A stretch of DNA of 60,477 bases from a candidate division WOR-3 bacterium (lineage in GTDB: Bacteria; Hydrothermota; Tepidihabitantia; Tepidihabitantales; DTDR01), in contig JBDRVE010000007.1 of assembly GCA_039801725.1 (NCBI GenBank), positions 1-60,477 on the forward strand, read 5' to 3'. Both the position numbers and the translations under genes were made by a program. Numbering within the stretch: the first letter of the stretch is position 1; each line of letters opens with the position of its first letter. The notes beneath the pieces are model-generated. The model saw only the letters and a program-made list of their open reading frames with translations. It ran no database searches and was not told the origin of the DNA. Positions 42,169-50,342 of this stretch are shown piece by piece.

Positions 42169-42196
42169 TTGACATAATTTAAATTAAAAATAAAAT
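42169..42196 (+). promoter_or_regulatory. Promoter of the exopolysaccharide-like operon
   Basis: TTGACA (42169-42174), 16-nt spacer, TAAAAT (42191-42196). A GAGGA SD lies in the ~25-nt leader before the ATG at 42228. This is the only clear promoter before the five-gene overlapping operon. Confidence 0.55.
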
Positions 42197-42227: not shown

Positions 42228-43250
42228 ATGGAAATAGATTTAATAAAAACTGGTATTGAGGAAATTGATAATCTTTGGGGTGGATTTCAACCAGGTTACG
42301 GATATTTTTTAATTAGTGAGAAAGAAGAGATCAATAATGAAATTCTTTTAAAATATGTGAATAAAGTTTTAATCTCTCAGGAACAAGTATTATATTTTAC
42401 TTCCTTAAACTTAGAAGATTTTTTAAGACAGGCAAAAAAGATTATGCCTGATGTGGATGAGTGGGTGAGAAAAAGTTTACTTTTTATTCATTTTGTTAAT
42501 CCTGATTTTTTAAAAATTAAAGAGGATAAAAAAACGATTTTTGCCTTAACTTCTTTGAAAAAGATTTTGATTAAAGAAAAAGCACGGCAAATTGTTATAA
42601 GTAATTTTGGTTATTTTCTTAATTTTGAAAATTTAGAAAAATTTTATAAAGAAATTTTTGAATTCTTTATGTTGTTAAGAGAATACTGTTGTGTTGGTTT
42701 TTTTTCTTTAACGAAAGAATTTGTTGAAGAAAATAAAGAAATTTTTTGTTTTTTAAGAGAAATTGCCGCCGGAATAATTTTTTATGAGGAAGAGAAATAT
42801 AATTTATTTTCCCGTTTCTCCCATCAAATAAAAATTTCGAAAAAAGAAGATTTTTTTATTCCCGAATATCCGCAAGAATCATCTGAACAGGATAGTTATA
42901 CGGGACTATATAATTATCAAGGATTTAAAAAAATTTTGGTTAAACTAATTGAAAAAAATTTTTTCTTTTCACTTTTTGGTTATCGAATTTTGACAGATTT
43001 AGATGATCACTTAAAGAGGATTTTTCTTTATCGGCTAACGAAGATTTTGAAAGAAAAAGGAATTAGGGTTCCGGCAATGCGTTACCAAGATAAGGTTTAT
43101 TTGCTATTTTTGAATAATAAAAAAGAATTAGAGGAGTGTAAAAAAATTATCAACGAAGAAGAGGCGACCGGAGGGATAAAGATTGCTAATTTTATTTATC
43201 ATTATCCAGAAGATTTTCAAAATATTGAAGAATTGAATAAAATCTTATGA
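42228..43250 (+). CDS. Degenerate KaiC-like ATPase fused to a degenerate GGDEF-like domain
   Basis: A 340-residue protein. Residues 1-205 follow the KaiC/RecA pattern (KTGIEEIDNLWGGFQPGYGYFLI), but where the Walker A GxxGxGKT should be it reads SEKEEINNE, and the Walker B strand (IVISNFGYF) lacks the Asp. From D222, DSYTGLYNYQGFKKIL matches the start of GGDEF domains. The signature position reads RYQDKVYLLF (285-294) where active enzymes have RYGGDEFxLL, followed by a TGGIKIANFIYHYPED strand like the usual SIGIA segment. Both active sites therefore look dead, suggesting a sensor or scaffold role. It overlaps the next gene by 4 nt. Confidence 0.6.
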   Translation: MEIDLIKTGIEEIDNLWGGFQPGYGYFLISEKEEINNEILLKYVNKVLISQEQVLYFTSLNLEDFLRQAKKIMPDVDEWVRKSLLFIHFVNPDFLKIKEDKKTIFALTSLKKILIKEKARQIVISNFGYFLNFENLEKFYKEIFEFFMLLREYCCVGFFSLTKEFVEENKEIFCFLREIAAGIIFYEEEKYNLFSRFSHQIKISKKEDFFIPEYPQESSEQDSYTGLYNYQGFKKILVKLIEKNFFFSLFGYRILTDLDDHLKRIFLYRLTKILKEKGIRVPAMRYQDKVYLLFLNNKKELEECKKIINEEEATGGIKIANFIYHYPEDFQNIEELNKIL

Positions 43251-44809
43251 AGATTCTTTTAATTGTTTCAATTCTTTTTTCCCACTGGGAATTAGAAAAG
43301 GCAAAAGAGTTGTATGAAAAGGGAATATATTTAGAAGCAGTTTATTATTTGAATAAGTATTTAGAAAAAAAACCTAAAGACAAAAAAGCAAGAGAGTTAA
43401 AAAGAAAAATTCTCTTCGAATTAAATTTGTCTGATTCAACGGAAAGGATTAAGGGTCTTTATAATTTTTCTAAAACACAAAAATCACAAAAAGAGATTAA
43501 AAAAGGGGAAATCCAATATTCCGAAATATTACAAAAAGCCCGAAGTGCAAAGGAAAGGGGAGATTATTTTAAAAGTTTGGCTTTTTACGAAGATTTTCTA
43601 AAAAAAGATACAAGTGATAAAAGAATTTTTTATGAAATTGCTCAGGTGAGTAGTTGGTTAGGATTTTTTAACAAAGCAATTTTTTATTACGAAAGATATT
43701 TAAATTATTTTCCTAAGGATAAAAGAGCTCGTTATGAATTAGCCTTAGTGCACAGTTGGAATGGTAATTATGAAAAAGCATTAGAGATTTTAAAAAATTT
43801 AGAAAAAGAAACAACCGATATCAAAATAGATTTGGCTAAAGCAAGAATTTATAAATGGCAAAACGATTATTCGAATTCTTATCGGATTTATCAGCAATTA
43901 AAAAATTTGTATCCGGAAAATGAAGATATTTTAAAAGAGTATGAAGAAGTAAAAAGCAAAATGGAAGAAAAGGAAAAAAGGGAAGAAAAATCTGAAATTT
44001 TATATTCCTTTTTACCAATCTTTTCTTATCAACAAACAACGGAAGAATGGCAGAGGATTTTATTGGGCTCATATTTTCAATTTAATTGGAATAAATTATC
44101 CTCTACTATTCTTTATGAATGGCAACAATGTCAAGAAGACGATAGTTTGCGAATAATAAATAAAATTGGTTTAAAAAACAAAATCAATTTTTTAGAAAAT
44201 CTCTATCTTAATTTTAATGTTTATTATTTAGCAATAAAAAGAAGTGAAGATTTAATTCTTTATGGTATTGGGGTCAATTATCAAAATCCGAAGTTGCTAT
44301 TAAATTTAGAATATAATAAAAAACCGGTTTGGGAAGAAGTTTATAAAATAAATACTTGTTATCGTTTATTAACAGCCGATGCTCTTTGGGGAGGGATATA
44401 TTATCAGCCTTTCAAATTTTTGGGCTTTGAAGGAAATTATCAGTATGGTCTTTATAGTGATAAAAATGAATTGAATAATTTAAATCTTAAACTAATTTTT
44501 TTACCTTTTAATAATTTAAAATTTGGTTATCACTATTATTTTTTAAGTTATCTTATAGAAAAAGAGGAATATTGGTCACCAAGATTTTACGAAGTTCATT
44601 CAGCGTTTTTAAATATTTGGGTAGAAAATTTTGAAATATTTTTTAAATTGGGGAAACCGATTGATTTTTCCTTCTTAGAGAAAGATTTCTCAATCGCTTT
44701 TAGAATAAAATTAGTTAAAAATTTCTTTTTATTACTGAATGGCAAATACGGCGAAACTTACTATTACAAAATTGGTGAAGGAACTATTGGTTTTGAATAT
44801 TTATGGTAA
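43247..44809 (+). CDS. TPR + outer-membrane beta-barrel export protein (PgaA/YaiO-like)
   Basis: A 520-residue protein. A short signal peptide (MKILLIVSILFSHW) is followed by TPR repeats over about residues 15-235, such as AKELYEKGIYLEAVYYLNKYL, then an acidic linker. Residues 248-520 show alternating aromatic/hydrophobic strands (LLGSYFQFNWNKLSSTILYEW; LYLNFNVYYLAIKR) and end in FEYLW with a terminal aromatic, as in outer-membrane barrels. The TPR-then-barrel order matches PgaA-type exopolysaccharide porins, though much shorter than E. coli PgaA. YaiO is the other close architecture. Confidence 0.7.
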   Translation: MKILLIVSILFSHWELEKAKELYEKGIYLEAVYYLNKYLEKKPKDKKARELKRKILFELNLSDSTERIKGLYNFSKTQKSQKEIKKGEIQYSEILQKARSAKERGDYFKSLAFYEDFLKKDTSDKRIFYEIAQVSSWLGFFNKAIFYYERYLNYFPKDKRARYELALVHSWNGNYEKALEILKNLEKETTDIKIDLAKARIYKWQNDYSNSYRIYQQLKNLYPENEDILKEYEEVKSKMEEKEKREEKSEILYSFLPIFSYQQTTEEWQRILLGSYFQFNWNKLSSTILYEWQQCQEDDSLRIINKIGLKNKINFLENLYLNFNVYYLAIKRSEDLILYGIGVNYQNPKLLLNLEYNKKPVWEEVYKINTCYRLLTADALWGGIYYQPFKFLGFEGNYQYGLYSDKNELNNLNLKLIFLPFNNLKFGYHYYFLSYLIEKEEYWSPRFYEVHSAFLNIWVENFEIFFKLGKPIDFSFLEKDFSIAFRIKLVKNFFLLLNGKYGETYYYKIGEGTIGFEYLW

Positions 44810-44810
44810 A

Positions 44811-46193
44811 ATGAGAGAGAAAAAGTTTTTTATTACTTTAATTTTACTGATAGTTATCACAATTGGTTGTATTTATCTTTTATCCTTTATTAAAGAAAAA
44901 ATTAATTTAAGTTATGCCCATATTTTTATGCTTAGTCTAACAGTGCTTTTGCTTTCCTTTTTTATCTTATTACTTTTCCGTTATTTAATAATCCTTATTC
45001 TCTCTCTTCTTGCCCATTTTCGCTATAAAAATGAATTACTTAAAGAAGAAGACTTAAAAACAGTCTCTATTATTATGCCTGTTTATAATGAAGAAAAGAT
45101 CTTGGCAACGGTAATTAATTCTTTATTAAATTTAAATTATCCTAAAGAGAAGTACGAAGTGATTATTGTTGATGATGGTTCAAAAGATAATTCTTATTCA
45201 ATCGCTTATCAATTTTTAAAAAATGAGAAAGGGATAAAACTAAAATTGTTAAGGCAGGAAAATCAAGGAAAGGCTAAGGCATTGAATCGGGGTATTTGGG
45301 AAAGTAATGGTGAGATTATCGTTTGTATTGATTCCGATTGTGTGATAACTAAGAATTCTTTGATTTACGGAGTAAGACATTTCCAAGATGAAAAGGTGGG
45401 AGCGGTTGCCGGTAATGTGAAAATTTGGAATCAGGATAAATTATTTGTAAAATTACAGGCATTAGAATATATGGAAGGTTTAAATTTCACTCGGCAGGCA
45501 TTAGGTTTTTTGAACAAAGTTAATATTGTGCCCGGGGCAATTGGTTTTTTCCGTAGAGAAGTTTTAGAGAAAGTTGGTTTATACAATGGGAATATTTATG
45601 CTGAAGATTGTGATTTAACTTTGAGAATATTAAAAGCCGGTTATAAAGTTGTTTATGAACCAAAAGCAGTTGTTTACACCGAGGCTCCGGAAAGTATTAA
45701 CTGTCTCTTTAAACAGAGATATCGTTGGACAAGAGGTATTTTACAAGCAGTAAGAAAAAATAATCATCTTCTTTATCATTCTAAGGCTTCTTTTTCATTA
45801 ATTTTAAGTTATTTATTATTGATTTACGAAGCCTTTTTCTGGCCAGCAATGAATCTAATTGCTCATCTATTTTTCGCCCTTTTAGCACTTCTTTATGGAT
45901 TTATTCCTTTTCTTTTTATCTGGTGGTTTTCCTTAACCCTTCTTGATTTTAGTTCCGCTTGTTATGCTTATGTTAGTGATAAGAAAAGCGAAAATAATGC
46001 TTACAATAACAAAAAGATTATCTTTTCCCATTTACCTTTTTTGGTTTTAATCTATCGTCTTTTTTATCTTTTATTGATTGATACTATTAAGGTTTTTGCT
46101 TTTTTAGAAGAGGTTTTAAACTTAGAAATGGGCTGGCAAAGAATAAAAATTACTGGTAAACTTAATGGATATATAGTAAGAGAAAAGGTATGA
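44811..46193 (+). CDS. GT2 processive glycosyltransferase (PgaC/IcaA-like polysaccharide synthase)
   Basis: A 460-residue membrane protein with two N-terminal membrane spans and a GT2 catalytic domain: SIIMPVYNEEKILATVI, VDDGSKDNS, CIDSDCVI (DxD), AEDCDLTLRI and QRYRWTRG (the QxxRW motif of processive synthases). C-terminal spans follow. It probably polymerises an aminosugar or glucan and moves it across the inner membrane. ATG 44811 is preferred: an upstream in-frame ATG at 44739 would run 72 nt into the barrel gene and prepend a hydrophilic stretch. Confidence 0.85.
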   Translation: MREKKFFITLILLIVITIGCIYLLSFIKEKINLSYAHIFMLSLTVLLLSFFILLLFRYLIILILSLLAHFRYKNELLKEEDLKTVSIIMPVYNEEKILATVINSLLNLNYPKEKYEVIIVDDGSKDNSYSIAYQFLKNEKGIKLKLLRQENQGKAKALNRGIWESNGEIIVCIDSDCVITKNSLIYGVRHFQDEKVGAVAGNVKIWNQDKLFVKLQALEYMEGLNFTRQALGFLNKVNIVPGAIGFFRREVLEKVGLYNGNIYAEDCDLTLRILKAGYKVVYEPKAVVYTEAPESINCLFKQRYRWTRGILQAVRKNNHLLYHSKASFSLILSYLLLIYEAFFWPAMNLIAHLFFALLALLYGFIPFLFIWWFSLTLLDFSSACYAYVSDKKSENNAYNNKKIIFSHLPFLVLIYRLFYLLLIDTIKVFAFLEEVLNLEMGWQRIKITGKLNGYIVREKV

Positions 46194-46393
46194 GAGAAGT
46201 AATTACTGTTCTTTCAGCAATTGTTTTGGGAATTACTCTCATTACTCTGATTTTTTCATTAGTGATTTATGTTTTATTTCGTTTAAAGATAAATAGAAAA
46301 GAGAATTTAAATAACCAAAGAGTAAAACAAGAAAAAGAAATAGAGGAAGAAATATTCATCCGTTATCAGCCGAAAGAGGATGAAAAAAATTAA
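46190..46393 (+). CDS. Small single-span membrane protein in the polysaccharide operon
   Basis: A 67-residue protein with one membrane helix (about residues 7-30, VLSAIVLGITLITLIFSLVI) and a charged cytoplasmic tail rich in Lys/Glu. It overlaps the synthase by 4 nt (ATGA) and the deacetylase by 14 nt. In pga/hms operons a small membrane protein (PgaD/HmsS) sits beside the synthase and assists it. Position and size suggest an analogous role, but the sequence is too short to prove homology. Confidence 0.55.
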   Translation: MREVITVLSAIVLGITLITLIFSLVIYVLFRLKINRKENLNNQRVKQEKEIEEEIFIRYQPKEDEKN

Positions 46394-48068
46394 TCTCTGG
46401 TTTCTTATTTTAATCTTTTTTATTTTTCTCTTATTTTTAATTACCGCCCTTGGGCTTACCCAATTAGTAATAAAAAAACCAGAGTTTTATCCAATAGTTA
46501 AAGAAGAAAAAGATACTTTATTAACTTATGATACTTTAAAATTATCTTTCTTTAAAGAAGAATATCTGCCTTTAAAAGGTTATGTGCTTATTAATAAAAA
46601 TTTTATTTTTGATAATGAGATAAAGGTTTTAGAAGAGATATTAAAAGATTTTTCGGAATTTGATTATCAAATAATTGATGAAAAGATTTTTGAGAGATTG
46701 CCAGAAGAAAAAGGGGTTATTATTTTATTAGAAAAAACTAAATATGATCCAAAGATAAGTGAGAAAATTAAAGAAAAAGTTTATTCCGGTTGGGGAATTT
46801 TAATAATAAAAAATCCGCAGACGAAAGAAAATGTTTCTTTATTAAGTCATATTAGTGGTGTTATCCCGATAGAAAATAACAAAATAGAATACCAAGAAAT
46901 ACTTCTCAAAGGAGAAACACCATTAACCTTTAATATGAAGGTTGGAGATTTTTTAGGGATTGTTGGCGAAAAAAGTTATTATTTAAAGCCAGTGGAAAAG
47001 AGGGTAAATGTTTGTGGTTATTATAAATTTGGTAAAGAGGCAATTGTTTATGGTTTTTATAATAAGGGAAGATATGTTGCTTTAGGCTTTTCTTTAAATA
47101 GTTTAACAGGTGATTCTTTTACCCAAAAGAATATTAAAATTTTATTTAGAAATATAATAAATTGGTTAACCAAAAGACCGATAGTCCAAATTGGCTATTG
47201 GCCTGATAATAAAGAATATGCTTTTATTTTTACGTGCGATGTAGAACATCAAGGTGAAAATTGGCATAAGATTAAAGAAATAGTAAATGAGGGTACTTTC
47301 TTTTTTTTATCATCAGAGTTTAAAAGTTTTGATAAGAAAGATATAGAAAATATTGAAGTTGCTCTTCACGGACAAGAACACGAACCACTAAAAGGTAAAG
47401 ATTATAAAAAGCAAGAAAGAATTATTTTGGAAGGGAAAAATTACTTAGAAAAGAAATTGAAAGAAAAGATTTTTGGTTTCCATCCACCCCTTTTGATGTA
47501 TGATAGTTTAACTTTGGAGATTCTCAAAAAATCTGGTTTTCTCTATTTTCTTACTGAATACCAATTGGGAGTTCCTTTCCTTCCCTATTTATCTTCATTA
47601 ATTTCCATTCCCCAGACAATTCCTGATGATTATGATTTGATGATAAGAAACGGGATAAAAAATCCTGATACATTACTTAATTACTTCCTAAAATATATTG
47701 AAGAACTAAAAAGAATAAATGGGTTAATTGTTTTTAGTATCCATACCCATTTATTGGGCAATAGCGATTATCAGCCAGTAATAAAACAAATTATTGACTT
47801 GATAGAAAATGATAAAAATTGTTATTTTACCAAGGCAAAAGATATTGCCCAATGGTGGCAAAAAAGGTCAAAGATAGAAATGGATTTTAAAGAGAATAAA
47901 ATAGATGAGATAATTATAGCAAACTTTACTCCAGAAGATATTGAAGGGATTGTTATAAAGTATTATCCTTCAACTAATGAAATATCAGAGAGAGAGATTA
48001 CAATTGATATTAAAAAATTGGCTAAAAGAGAAAAAAGAAAAATATATATTATTTACCAAGATCATTAA
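46380..48068 (+). CDS. Membrane-anchored polysaccharide deacetylase (NodB/CE4-like) with N-terminal GATase-like domain
   Basis: A 562-residue protein. One N-terminal membrane anchor (about residues 4-27) is followed by a ~220-residue alpha/beta domain ending in GRYVALGFSLNSL...LFRNIINWL, similar to amidotransferase-fold domains of membrane glycan proteins. From residue 280 it is a CE4-type barrel: CDVEHQ (D287, E289, H290), LHGQEH (H330, H334, metal site), FHPP at 367-370 where CE4 enzymes usually have FRPP, and SIHTH (H455, H457). Predicted to deacetylate a periplasmic glycan, the role PgaB plays for PNAG. The Arg-to-His change may alter activity. Confidence 0.7.
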   Translation: MKKINLWFLILIFFIFLLFLITALGLTQLVIKKPEFYPIVKEEKDTLLTYDTLKLSFFKEEYLPLKGYVLINKNFIFDNEIKVLEEILKDFSEFDYQIIDEKIFERLPEEKGVIILLEKTKYDPKISEKIKEKVYSGWGILIIKNPQTKENVSLLSHISGVIPIENNKIEYQEILLKGETPLTFNMKVGDFLGIVGEKSYYLKPVEKRVNVCGYYKFGKEAIVYGFYNKGRYVALGFSLNSLTGDSFTQKNIKILFRNIINWLTKRPIVQIGYWPDNKEYAFIFTCDVEHQGENWHKIKEIVNEGTFFFLSSEFKSFDKKDIENIEVALHGQEHEPLKGKDYKKQERIILEGKNYLEKKLKEKIFGFHPPLLMYDSLTLEILKKSGFLYFLTEYQLGVPFLPYLSSLISIPQTIPDDYDLMIRNGIKNPDTLLNYFLKYIEELKRINGLIVFSIHTHLLGNSDYQPVIKQIIDLIENDKNCYFTKAKDIAQWWQKRSKIEMDFKENKIDEIIIANFTPEDIEGIVIKYYPSTNEISEREITIDIKKLAKREKRKIYIIYQDH

Positions 48069-48210: not shown

Positions 48211-49173
48211 TTAGTCGGGCGATATTTTTTTGACTTTTTCTTTGATGCCCAAAATTTTTTGGATAGGAAGATAAGATTTTCTTACAAACCAAGGGAATTC
48301 TTTATGTTTTTCGTACCATTTTTTTAACCATTCTCTTGTTTCGCTGTCGCCCAAATTTCCGCTGCCGATTGTTAAGTTCTCAATTTGGTATTCCGGATTA
48401 CTTTTAAGTTGAAAAAGGAATTTCTCTTTAAAGAATTTGGCAATAAGAGAGGCGGTTTTCACTTCTAAATATTTTTCATCAGCATTTTTCTTAATTATCA
48501 CTTGTGTTCCTTTTTTGGCTAAATCAGTTAAAAAATTCTTTAAATTTTTACCTACTCCGTAGTCGTCAATTGTAATCCTTAAATTCTTTAAATCTTTCTC
48601 TTTAATTAATTTCTTTAATATCGTTAAATAACCGAGATCCATTAGATAATTGATTTTATATTTATCAATCAATTGGGGAGAGATTTTTTTACCAACGAAG
48701 GTTAAGCCAGCCTCTTTATAAAATAAAATCTTTTTATAAATTTCTTGCCAATACGAAAAAGGATGCTCTTTTTTGGTATCAACAGTTGAAATAATTTCTT
48801 CTAAAAAGGGAAAAAGATTTTTGGGAATAAAGACACTAATAAGAATTAAAGGTCCAAATATTTCTCCCTTGTTTGTTTCATCCAAACCAATGGCAAAATC
48901 TTTGTTTAAGGGAACAAAGAGAGAGCCAGCAATTTTATTTATCTCCTCCCAAGCATTAATAACTTCTGGCGATTCAACCTTTGTTGGTGTTGAGTATAAA
49001 GTTTTTGTGGAATAATAAGTAAAAACTGCATCTTCTAATCTTATCCGCCAAATTTCATAAGGACTATTTACTTTTTCCTGTTTTCCGCCTTTCTCTAATA
49101 AAAGGGATTTTATTTTTTCTGCCTTATTTTTATTAACCCTCCATTTTCTACCGGTTAAAATCTCTTTCGCCAT
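48211..49173 (-). CDS. rnhC: Ribonuclease HIII
   Basis: A 320-residue protein. The N-terminal ~90 residues fit the TBP-like substrate-binding domain of RNase HIII. The catalytic domain has IGLDETNKGEIFGPLILI (canonical DEtGKGd/yFGP; here Asn replaces Gly, but the Asp-Glu pair is intact), TIDDYGVG and ADEKYLEVKTASLIAK. It cleaves RNA in RNA/DNA hybrids. The start overlaps the upstream DUF438 gene stop by one base, making an operon with it and arsC. Confidence 0.9.
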   Translation of the reverse strand: MAKEILTGRKWRVNKNKAEKIKSLLLEKGGKQEKVNSPYEIWRIRLEDAVFTYYSTKTLYSTPTKVESPEVINAWEEINKIAGSLFVPLNKDFAIGLDETNKGEIFGPLILISVFIPKNLFPFLEEIISTVDTKKEHPFSYWQEIYKKILFYKEAGLTFVGKKISPQLIDKYKINYLMDLGYLTILKKLIKEKDLKNLRITIDDYGVGKNLKNFLTDLAKKGTQVIIKKNADEKYLEVKTASLIAKFFKEKFLFQLKSNPEYQIENLTIGSGNLGDSETREWLKKWYEKHKEFPWFVRKSYLPIQKILGIKEKVKKISPD

Positions 49174-50342
49174 TAATAATCATAAATTCTCTTTTCGCCT
49201 TCAATTTTTTTAATTTCGGTAATATCCTGCGTAACTTCAATACATCCTAAATAATCACCTTCTTTATTACGGACAGCAAAATAACGAATATGAACTAATC
49301 TTCCTTTATGGGAAATCCAAAATTCAGCAACATCTCTTTTCTTATTTTTAAAATCGCTTAAAATTCTTTCAACAATATGGATACTTTTTTGGGGATGGCA
49401 TTGTTGAACTTTTCTACCCAAAACTGCTTTGGTACGTAAAAATATTCTTTCTTTTGACTGGTTGAAGTATCTAACAATATCGTTTTTATCAACAAAAGTA
49501 ATATCAAAAGGCAGAGTGTTTAAAAGATTTTCTAATTCTTCCAAAGAAAAGGCACCAGTTTCAAAATTGATTGGTAAGGTTTCTGAAATTTTTTTAGTTG
49601 TCTCTTTTATTTCTTCTCTTTTGGTGCTCTCGTCGGGTGTAAAACAGCAATAACCGATTTCATTAAATTCTTTCTTTATCTCCTGCCATTCTTCTTGGGT
49701 TATTACATTTAAAGAGGTAGGGAAAAGGATTTTATTTTCCTTATAAAAATGGGAATTTAACATTTCAAAAAGTTCTTGTGCCTTTTCTTTTAAAAGATTT
49801 AAATTTTCTTTCTTTTCCCATAATTGATAAATCTCTTTTTTTATGCTGCGGATTTTATCATGTTCCATCCACATTATTGCTGGTGGCTGGGTAATTCCGT
49901 GTTTCTCTAAATAAGGAAAAAGGACATTCTCTTCTCTTAAATAATGGGATTCGGAGTCTTTAAAATGATGAATAATATGTTCTAATTTTTCATCTAATTT
50001 ATTTTCTAAAAGAATTTGATAAAACTCTCGACTATTCTCTAAAAGAATTTTATGCTCAGTCATTAAAATATAAATCGGGTGTCCGGGTTCAGTTAAAATC
50101 TCTTCTTTTGCTAACTCCTCTTCCATAAGTGCCAAATGAAGAGAACAAAATTTCTGGATTTCTTCTTTACTCATTCCTTCCCTAATCAATTCCTCTTCAA
50201 TTTCCGCAACTATCTTCGGTGTTAAACCTTTTAAAGAATCTTTAAATTCCTCTTTCAATTTTTTAACATCTTCACCTTGATGGATTCTTTTTATTATTTC
50301 CTTTATTATTTCTTTTTTATTTTTGCCAAAAAGTTCACTCAC
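49173..50342 (-). CDS. DUF438 + hemerythrin-like + PAS protein
   Basis: A 389-residue protein. Residues 1-75 are a DUF438-type helical domain (KNKKEIIKEIIKRIHQGEDV). Residues 85-235 are a hemerythrin-like four-helix bundle with His/Glu iron ligands (MTEHKIL; HHFKDSESHYLREENVLFPYLEKHG; MEHDKIR; HFYKENKILFP). Residues 265-380 are a PAS domain (LNTLPFDITFVDKNDIVRYFNQS; GRKVQQCHP). Proteins of this layout are thought to sense O2, NO or redox state. It overlaps arsC by 4 nt. Confidence 0.88.
   Translation of the reverse strand: MSELFGKNKKEIIKEIIKRIHQGEDVKKLKEEFKDSLKGLTPKIVAEIEEELIREGMSKEEIQKFCSLHLALMEEELAKEEILTEPGHPIYILMTEHKILLENSREFYQILLENKLDEKLEHIIHHFKDSESHYLREENVLFPYLEKHGITQPPAIMWMEHDKIRSIKKEIYQLWEKKENLNLLKEKAQELFEMLNSHFYKENKILFPTSLNVITQEEWQEIKKEFNEIGYCCFTPDESTKREEIKETTKKISETLPINFETGAFSLEELENLLNTLPFDITFVDKNDIVRYFNQSKERIFLRTKAVLGRKVQQCHPQKSIHIVERILSDFKNKKRDVAEFWISHKGRLVHIRYFAVRNKEGDYLGCIEVTQDITEIKKIEGEKRIYDY

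Follow-up and report, generated by a model that had tools for sequence, protein, structure and literature searches.

A KaiC- and GGDEF-derived protein that has lost both active sites heads a probable polysaccharide secretion cluster in a candidate division WOR-3 bacterium

Background

What does a protein built from two inactive enzyme domains do at the head of a polysaccharide gene cluster? The question is raised by a stretch of 60,477 nucleotides from a candidate division WOR-3 bacterium (phylum Hydrothermota; contig JBDRVE010000007.1 of assembly GCA_039801725.1), here called the window. At 42228-48068 on the forward strand five open reading frames were confirmed, encoding in order the head protein, a tetratricopeptide repeat (TPR) protein, a glycosyltransferase of family GT2, a 67-residue membrane protein and a protein of carbohydrate esterase family 4 (CE4). 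An initial annotation had described them as a divergent pga/hms-type operon led by a plausible dead-enzyme sensor, and had known of no described system with such a head gene. A precedent does exist: BcsE leads the bcsEFG operon and combines a KaiC/RecA-like domain, with a severely diverged Walker A, with a degenerate REC-GGDEF tandem (PMC7439463; PMC11470070). An origin of BcsE by fusion of smaller subunits has been proposed (PMC7439463).

We consider it modestly probable that the window cluster serves synthase-dependent polysaccharide secretion, and that its head is a non-enzymatic adaptor working like BcsE. We base this reading on the dead sites of the head, the selection acting on it, its synteny with the synthase, membrane protein and deacetylase genes, and a host order in which no GGDEF or EAL enzymes were detected.

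Domains and lost sites of the head protein

The head gene and its parts, with the evidence for each, are:

42228..43250, + strand: head gene, KaiC-like plus GGDEF-derived, 340 amino acids (Pfam, profile and fold matches; ratio of nonsynonymous to synonymous substitution rates, dN/dS, 0.12-0.20)
42228..42845, + strand: KaiC-like domain, residues 1-206 (Pfam 23.7 bits; profile E=1.5e-26; Foldseek KaiC)
42315..42338, + strand: degenerate Walker A position SEKEEINN, residues 30-37 (aligned with GPVDSGKT of genome G003)
42867..43247, + strand: GGDEF-derived domain, residues 214-340 (profile-profile 97%, E=1.9e-11)
43080..43094, + strand: degenerate signature RYQDK, residues 285-289, replacing RYGGDEF (alignment)

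The head protein descends from a KaiC-like ATPase and a GGDEF domain, and both active sites are lost. For the single window sequence Pfam yields only KaiC (E=3.7e-5, slightly under the cut-off of 26.6 bits), the GGDEF model giving no hit. The KaiC profile match listed above was obtained against KaiC structures with a profile of five orthologs from the same order, which also matches a GGDEF-family structure (PDB 6khu) with E=1.7e-5. The orthologous heads of genomes G003 and G013 reach 74 and 99 bits with the KaiC model (PF06745). For the C-terminal half, the profile-profile match was obtained against a set of eleven true GGDEF domains from the same class; unrelated controls stayed under 1%. In an AlphaFold2 (AF2) model of the window head, run without close orthologs in the alignment, the KaiC part best matches KaiC structures, and the GGDEF half mostly has a predicted local distance difference test score (pLDDT) below 50, too poor to judge. 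Both domains named in the initial annotation were thus recovered, KaiC by profile and model and GGDEF by profile.

Three of its motif readings were verified by alignment as well: DSYTGLYN stands at residue 222, RYQDK at the signature, and no Walker A is present. By the same means we found neither the catalytic glutamates of KaiC, nor the metal- and substrate-binding residues of GGDEF domains (DxD, N/D), nor an RxxD at the true I-site position in the window head. RYQD has the look of an RxxD motif but was rejected as an I-site, since the alignment puts it on the signature. Pfam and alignment gave no REC domain.

Walker A is kept in the heads of G003, G013 (GPQGSGKT), the Ignavibacterium locus L048 (GERKTGKT) and the Gemmatimonadota locus L049 (GGPGSGKT), and is not kept in locus L054 (GVPGSGRS) or the window's genus. 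On this distribution a late loss of the ATP site, within the window's branch, would be the simplest reading. RYxDK is common to the window's genus and G003, and G013 has IYENS in its place.

Selection on the head gene

The dN/dS range listed for the head was measured between three species of the window's genus, in all of which the frame is intact. The GGDEF-derived half has values of about 0.09-0.10 in two species pairs, dS being saturated in the third, and the KaiC half 0.14-0.29; the dS values are high, hence the ratios for the head are rough. Neutral decay is incompatible with these measurements, and pseudogene status was rejected on them. The loss of both active sites would suit a decaying, functionless leftover, but the low ratios, the intact frames in three species and the conserved translational coupling of the head to the next gene leave that reading extremely improbable.

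Cyclic di-GMP in the host order

The initial annotation pointed to control by cyclic di-GMP (c-di-GMP). GGDEF enzymes were found in none of the 28 genomes of the window's order (G000-G027), versus all 37 genomes searched in other families of the class. EAL domains were likewise found in 0 of 28, HD-GYP domains not being part of the search, and PilZ domains in 0 of the 15 genomes of the order searched. The genomes are assemblies with a completeness of at least 82%, and the pattern of c-di-GMP enzymes is the same in all 28. This order-wide absence of c-di-GMP metabolism, as read from GGDEF and EAL domains, is an observation in its own right.

Because no GGDEF, EAL or PilZ domains were found in the order, it is very unlikely that the head senses c-di-GMP in the window's organism, unless the signal is external. 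With the I-site position lost as well, we rejected c-di-GMP control of the operon. The head might still sense a ligand at a non-canonical site: c-di-GMP taken up from outside, or some other nucleotide, could bind at RYxDK or within the KaiC-like cleft. The retention of RYxDK in the window's genus and G003 speaks for this, as do the Walker A of G003 and G013 and the stronger conservation of the GGDEF-derived half than of the rest of the head. We nevertheless hold it improbable, as the order has no detected c-di-GMP enzymes or PilZ, RYQD aligns with the signature instead of the I-site, and G013 lacks the motif.

Distribution of the gene set

The complete cluster, arranged identically, was found in three species of the window's genus and in one genome in each of two other families of the order. 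The neighbourhood expected by the initial annotation therefore recurs in relatives, across three families. A search with the CE4 alignment in 147 genomes of the phylum returned these five cluster genomes and one weak domain hit. Further relatives of the CE4 protein lie in G013 (C44:13199-14554 and C61:1-348); the second is cut by the contig end and stands just downstream of the G013 operon, which suggests a duplication.

Outside the phylum, GT2 relatives with 47-55% identity were found in named genomes, namely an Ignavibacterium metagenome-assembled genome (MAG), Gemmatimonadota MAGs and two Campylobacterales MAGs. Most of these loci also have a small membrane protein and a CE4 gene. A head-like gene stands before the TPR gene, directly before GT2 (Ignavibacterium) or between TPR and GT2 (Campylobacterales). 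All seven of the other-phylum genomes with GT2 relatives have GGDEF enzymes. In a tree of the KaiC domain the heads of the window's genus, G003, G013 and Ignavibacterium group together (93/95). A GT2 with 40% identity to the operon synthase (L055:9707-11203) lies on a contig assigned to a Lokiarchaeia MAG, an assignment that is possibly contamination, and no other operon genes were found on that contig.

Relation to BcsE

The BcsE set used for comparison consisted of eight sequences from E. coli and plasmid records and one unannotated Photobacterium frame. With the Pfam BcsE model (PF10995, cut-off 25 bits) the window head gave no hit, the L048 head gave 11 bits, and none was found in 15 genomes of the order.

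The Gemmatimonadota heads do resemble BcsE. Pfam assigns them KaiC and Response_reg, the receiver being under its cut-off. Over 420 collinear columns, an alignment of these heads matched that of BcsE at 94.8% (E=5.6e-8); as controls the reversed BcsE alignment gave 0.2% and twenty column shuffles at most 0.5%. The REC site of BcsE, R306ATD, aligns with RASD or RAGD in these heads. An AF2 model of the L049 head was searched against the PDB, and BcsE (6ybb) came first and the BcsE2F2 complex (9fo7) fourth. On these alignments the Gemmatimonadota heads are likely homologous to BcsE.

The link of the window head to BcsE runs via its operon neighbours, because the heads of the window's genus, taken alone, give no detectable match (0.3-0.7%). 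For the same reason direct BcsE membership of the window protein is not claimed. When the KaiC parts of all heads are pooled, they match the N-terminal domain of BcsE collinearly (43%, E=2.5e-4), and all heads pooled match BcsE at 76%. Window-type and Gemmatimonadota heads match each other in the KaiC domain only (98%, five or six sequences pooled), a result that many KaiC proteins might give. Homology of the window branch to BcsE is only plausible.

Several observations weigh against the BcsE connection. Besides the failure of the window-genus heads to match, the window head lacks the REC domain that BcsE has. Its C-terminal domain is nearer to true GGDEF domains (97%) than to that of BcsE (about 1%), and it has no match to the C-terminal domain of the Gemmatimonadota heads. 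In the KaiC-domain tree the Gemmatimonadota heads stand apart from the window-type group with their placement unresolved, so one KaiC clade of all heads was not obtained. The L049 model is of modest quality, with a mean pLDDT of 57 and about 80 for the two C-terminal domains, and its template modelling (TM) scores to BcsE are low owing to an uncertain domain arrangement. PleD, a REC-GGDEF protein, ranks between 6ybb and 9fo7 and scores nearly as well; therefore the fold match shows a REC-GGDEF architecture, not BcsE alone.

These points, those on the L049 model apart, would fit a convergent origin, by which the window head is an independent fusion of KaiC and GGDEF domains that resembles BcsE only in position and general scaffold role. 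The pooled matches to BcsE argue the other way, and both head types are accompanied by the same synthase, tail-motif protein and CE4 gene. Convergence is a real possibility, if a doubtful one, and we keep the BcsE-like adaptor as the preferred explanation. A BcsE-like function of the window head would rest on architecture and neighbours.

In Campylobacterales the proteins at the head position (L052:2315-3592 and L053:4822-6138) have no Pfam match and contain a stretch like the REC* domain of BcsE. They carry RxxD at both BcsE I-site positions, RKTD/RQSD at the first and RKED/REGD at the second, the latter by inspection of the alignment. These two proteins are candidate c-di-GMP-binding relatives of BcsE.

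The 67-residue membrane protein

BcsF is the single-span partner of BcsE, and its cytosolic tail adds a strand to the sheet of the BcsE NTPase* domain (PMC11470070). The corresponding features of the window are:

46190..46393, + strand: 67-residue single-span membrane protein, BcsF-like (ortholog alignment; tail comparison)
46352..46375, + strand: tail motif IFIRYQPK, residues 55-62 of this protein (ortholog alignment; tail comparison)

A basic residue followed by Tyr or Phe, and often then by Pro, occurs in all ten small-protein tails tested. Examples are FIRYQP in the window and ARYFVLHKPP and PRYFEVHTPP in Gemmatimonadota. The tail of E. coli BcsF has KPRYVKPAG. The motif arose in 3 of 5000 shuffles, a figure that overstates the evidence as the motif was picked post hoc and the rows are related. 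The length of about 67 residues gives homology tests no power. The initial annotation had placed the protein in the role of PgaD, but the single span and the basic-aromatic tail bring it closer to BcsF.

Synthase, exporter and deacetylase

The remaining three genes of the cluster are:

43247..44809, + strand: TPR protein with probable C-terminal barrel, exporter candidate, 520 amino acids (TPR hits; weak PgaA match, 34 bits)
44811..46193, + strand: GT2 processive synthase candidate, 460 amino acids (Pfam GT2 E=1.4e-36; PgaC_IcaA 208 bits, below the cut-off; ortholog start)
46380..48068, + strand: membrane-anchored CE4-type deacetylase with an extra N-terminal domain, 562 amino acids (weak DUF2334 and Polysacc_deac_1 hits; ortholog alignment)

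Processive synthase motifs (DDG, DSD, EDCD, QRYRW) are retained in the GT2. A C-terminal barrel in the TPR protein is probable, because the N terminus is signal-like, the C-terminal half is rich in strands and the C terminus is aromatic. The G003 ortholog of the CE4 protein matches Polysacc_deac_1 with E=3.7e-20. In the window protein and the ortholog Pfam gave CE4-type matches only, and no glycoside hydrolase domain of the PgaB type was detected.

Could this be an ordinary operon for poly-N-acetylglucosamine (PNAG), a partly deacetylated beta-1,6-GlcNAc polymer, with the 67-residue protein as PgaD and c-di-GMP in control? PgaC (TIGR03937) and PgaA (TIGR03939) are the best curated models for the GT2 and the TPR protein, and a CE4 gene is present. 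The scores, however, are 208.3 bits where 422.3 are required for PgaC, and 34.1 where 366.65 are required for PgaA, which is half and a tenth of the cut-offs. In the GT2 tree E. coli PgaC falls in another place, grouped with other synthases at 100/100, and the operon GT2s were not recovered as one clade. The lack of a detected PgaB-type hydrolase domain and of c-di-GMP enzymes, and the single span of the small protein, point in the same direction. We consider an ordinary pga operon quite unlikely, and pga membership, as proposed in the initial annotation, was rejected on the curated cut-offs.

In both Campylobacterales loci a gene of glycoside hydrolase family GH8, the family of BcsZ and some chitosanases, lies directly 3' of the CE4 gene (L052:6973-8169 and L053:9489-10805). 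In the Ignavibacterium MAG contig a gene fragment of GH9, a cellulase family, precedes the head (L048:1-909). These neighbours in relatives are hints of a beta-1,4-linked polymer.

Locus layout and transcription signals

One promoter-like site stands ahead of the head gene, as the initial annotation had reported:

42169..42196, + strand: TTGACA-16-TAAAAT (11 of 12 consensus positions; the best match in the region, which alone is no proof of function)

As a class, promoter-like matches barely exceed expectation in the region (44 found against 33.8 expected, sd 5.7), and terminator-like sites are no more frequent there than in shuffled sequence. Three of the four gene junctions overlap, by 4, 4 and 14 nucleotides. 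The GT2 frame opens at 44739; its start was placed at 44811, one base past the TPR stop, as most likely because orthologs share an initial M(R/K)E(K/R)KFF. This means that of the five overlapping genes described before, the five adjacent genes and three overlaps stand, and the TPR/GT2 junction is probably one base apart.

An RNase H-like gene lies 3' of the operon on the opposite strand. Also downstream, at 49173-50342 on the minus strand, is a gene for a 389-residue protein, by appearance a sensor of hemerythrin and PAS type, which is kept there across the genus.

Proposed role and its meaning

The window head is most likely a nucleotide-independent scaffold. Its KaiC-like domain would dock on the basic-aromatic tail of the 67-residue protein, as the NTPase* domain of BcsE does on BcsF, and its GGDEF-derived domain may contact the synthase or another partner and so help the complex to form or to stay at the membrane. 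The action of the head in the window's genus would no longer involve ATP or c-di-GMP; it may still be gated by nucleotide binding in those relatives whose Walker A is intact. The idea of a dead-enzyme sensor tied to polysaccharide synthesis survives in part: a non-catalytic role with the synthase is the likeliest, and sensing of c-di-GMP is unsupported.

BcsE has so far been described within cellulose secretion of the E. coli kind. We found no literature on BcsE relatives outside cellulose systems, in a search that left most preprints and subscription papers outside its reach. Relatives that stand outside cellulose operons and have an intact Walker A, a REC domain and I-sites would be concrete material on the origin of BcsE. 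We tentatively suggest, at a little short of an even chance, that modules of the BcsE/BcsF type are old and general and serve non-cellulose, deacetylase-type synthases across phyla, some with an intact ATP site, and that in the window's order the module outlived c-di-GMP as a nucleotide-independent scaffold. The order is a natural test of the role of the regulator without its second messenger, as none of the 28 genomes showed a GGDEF enzyme, yet a GGDEF-derived domain is under selection. The finding supports assembly or scaffolding, beyond signal sensing, as a core role of BcsE-like proteins.

Comparison with known systems

The Pga/Hms (PNAG) systems likewise cluster the genes for a GT2 synthase, a TPR exporter, a small membrane protein and a CE4 deacetylase. 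The window cluster differs from them in failing the curated scores, in its head gene, which is absent from pga, in a deacetylase with another N-terminal domain and no detected hydrolase domain, and in the single span of its small protein.

In the Pel system, PelD spans the membrane with four helices, carries a GAF domain and uses RxxD to bind c-di-GMP (PMC8461298). It shares with the window head a degenerate GGDEF domain tied to the synthase complex for a polysaccharide, whereas the window head carries a KaiC-like domain and lacks an I-site. KaiC family ATPases resemble the N-terminal domain of the window head by profile and fold, but the latter is a single domain joined to a remnant of GGDEF, and it has neither Walker A nor the catalytic glutamates.

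The cellulose system of E. coli (Type II) with BcsE and BcsF shares many features with the window cluster. In both the operon leader combines a KaiC/RecA-like domain, in which Walker A does not work, with a degenerate GGDEF domain that lacks catalytic residues. In both it is accompanied by a single-span protein some 65 residues long, whose cytosolic tail is basic-aromatic, and a GT2 synthase and a polymer-modifying enzyme are linked. The window cluster, however, lacks BcsA with PilZ, BcsR and BcsQ and has a deacetylase in place of BcsG; its head has neither REC nor either of the two RxxD I-sites and cannot be recognised directly as BcsE, and GGDEF or EAL enzymes were not detected in its order. 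Several relatives of the window head keep an intact Walker A, unlike E. coli BcsE, and the Gemmatimonadota relatives share with BcsE the REC domain too and align with it end to end.

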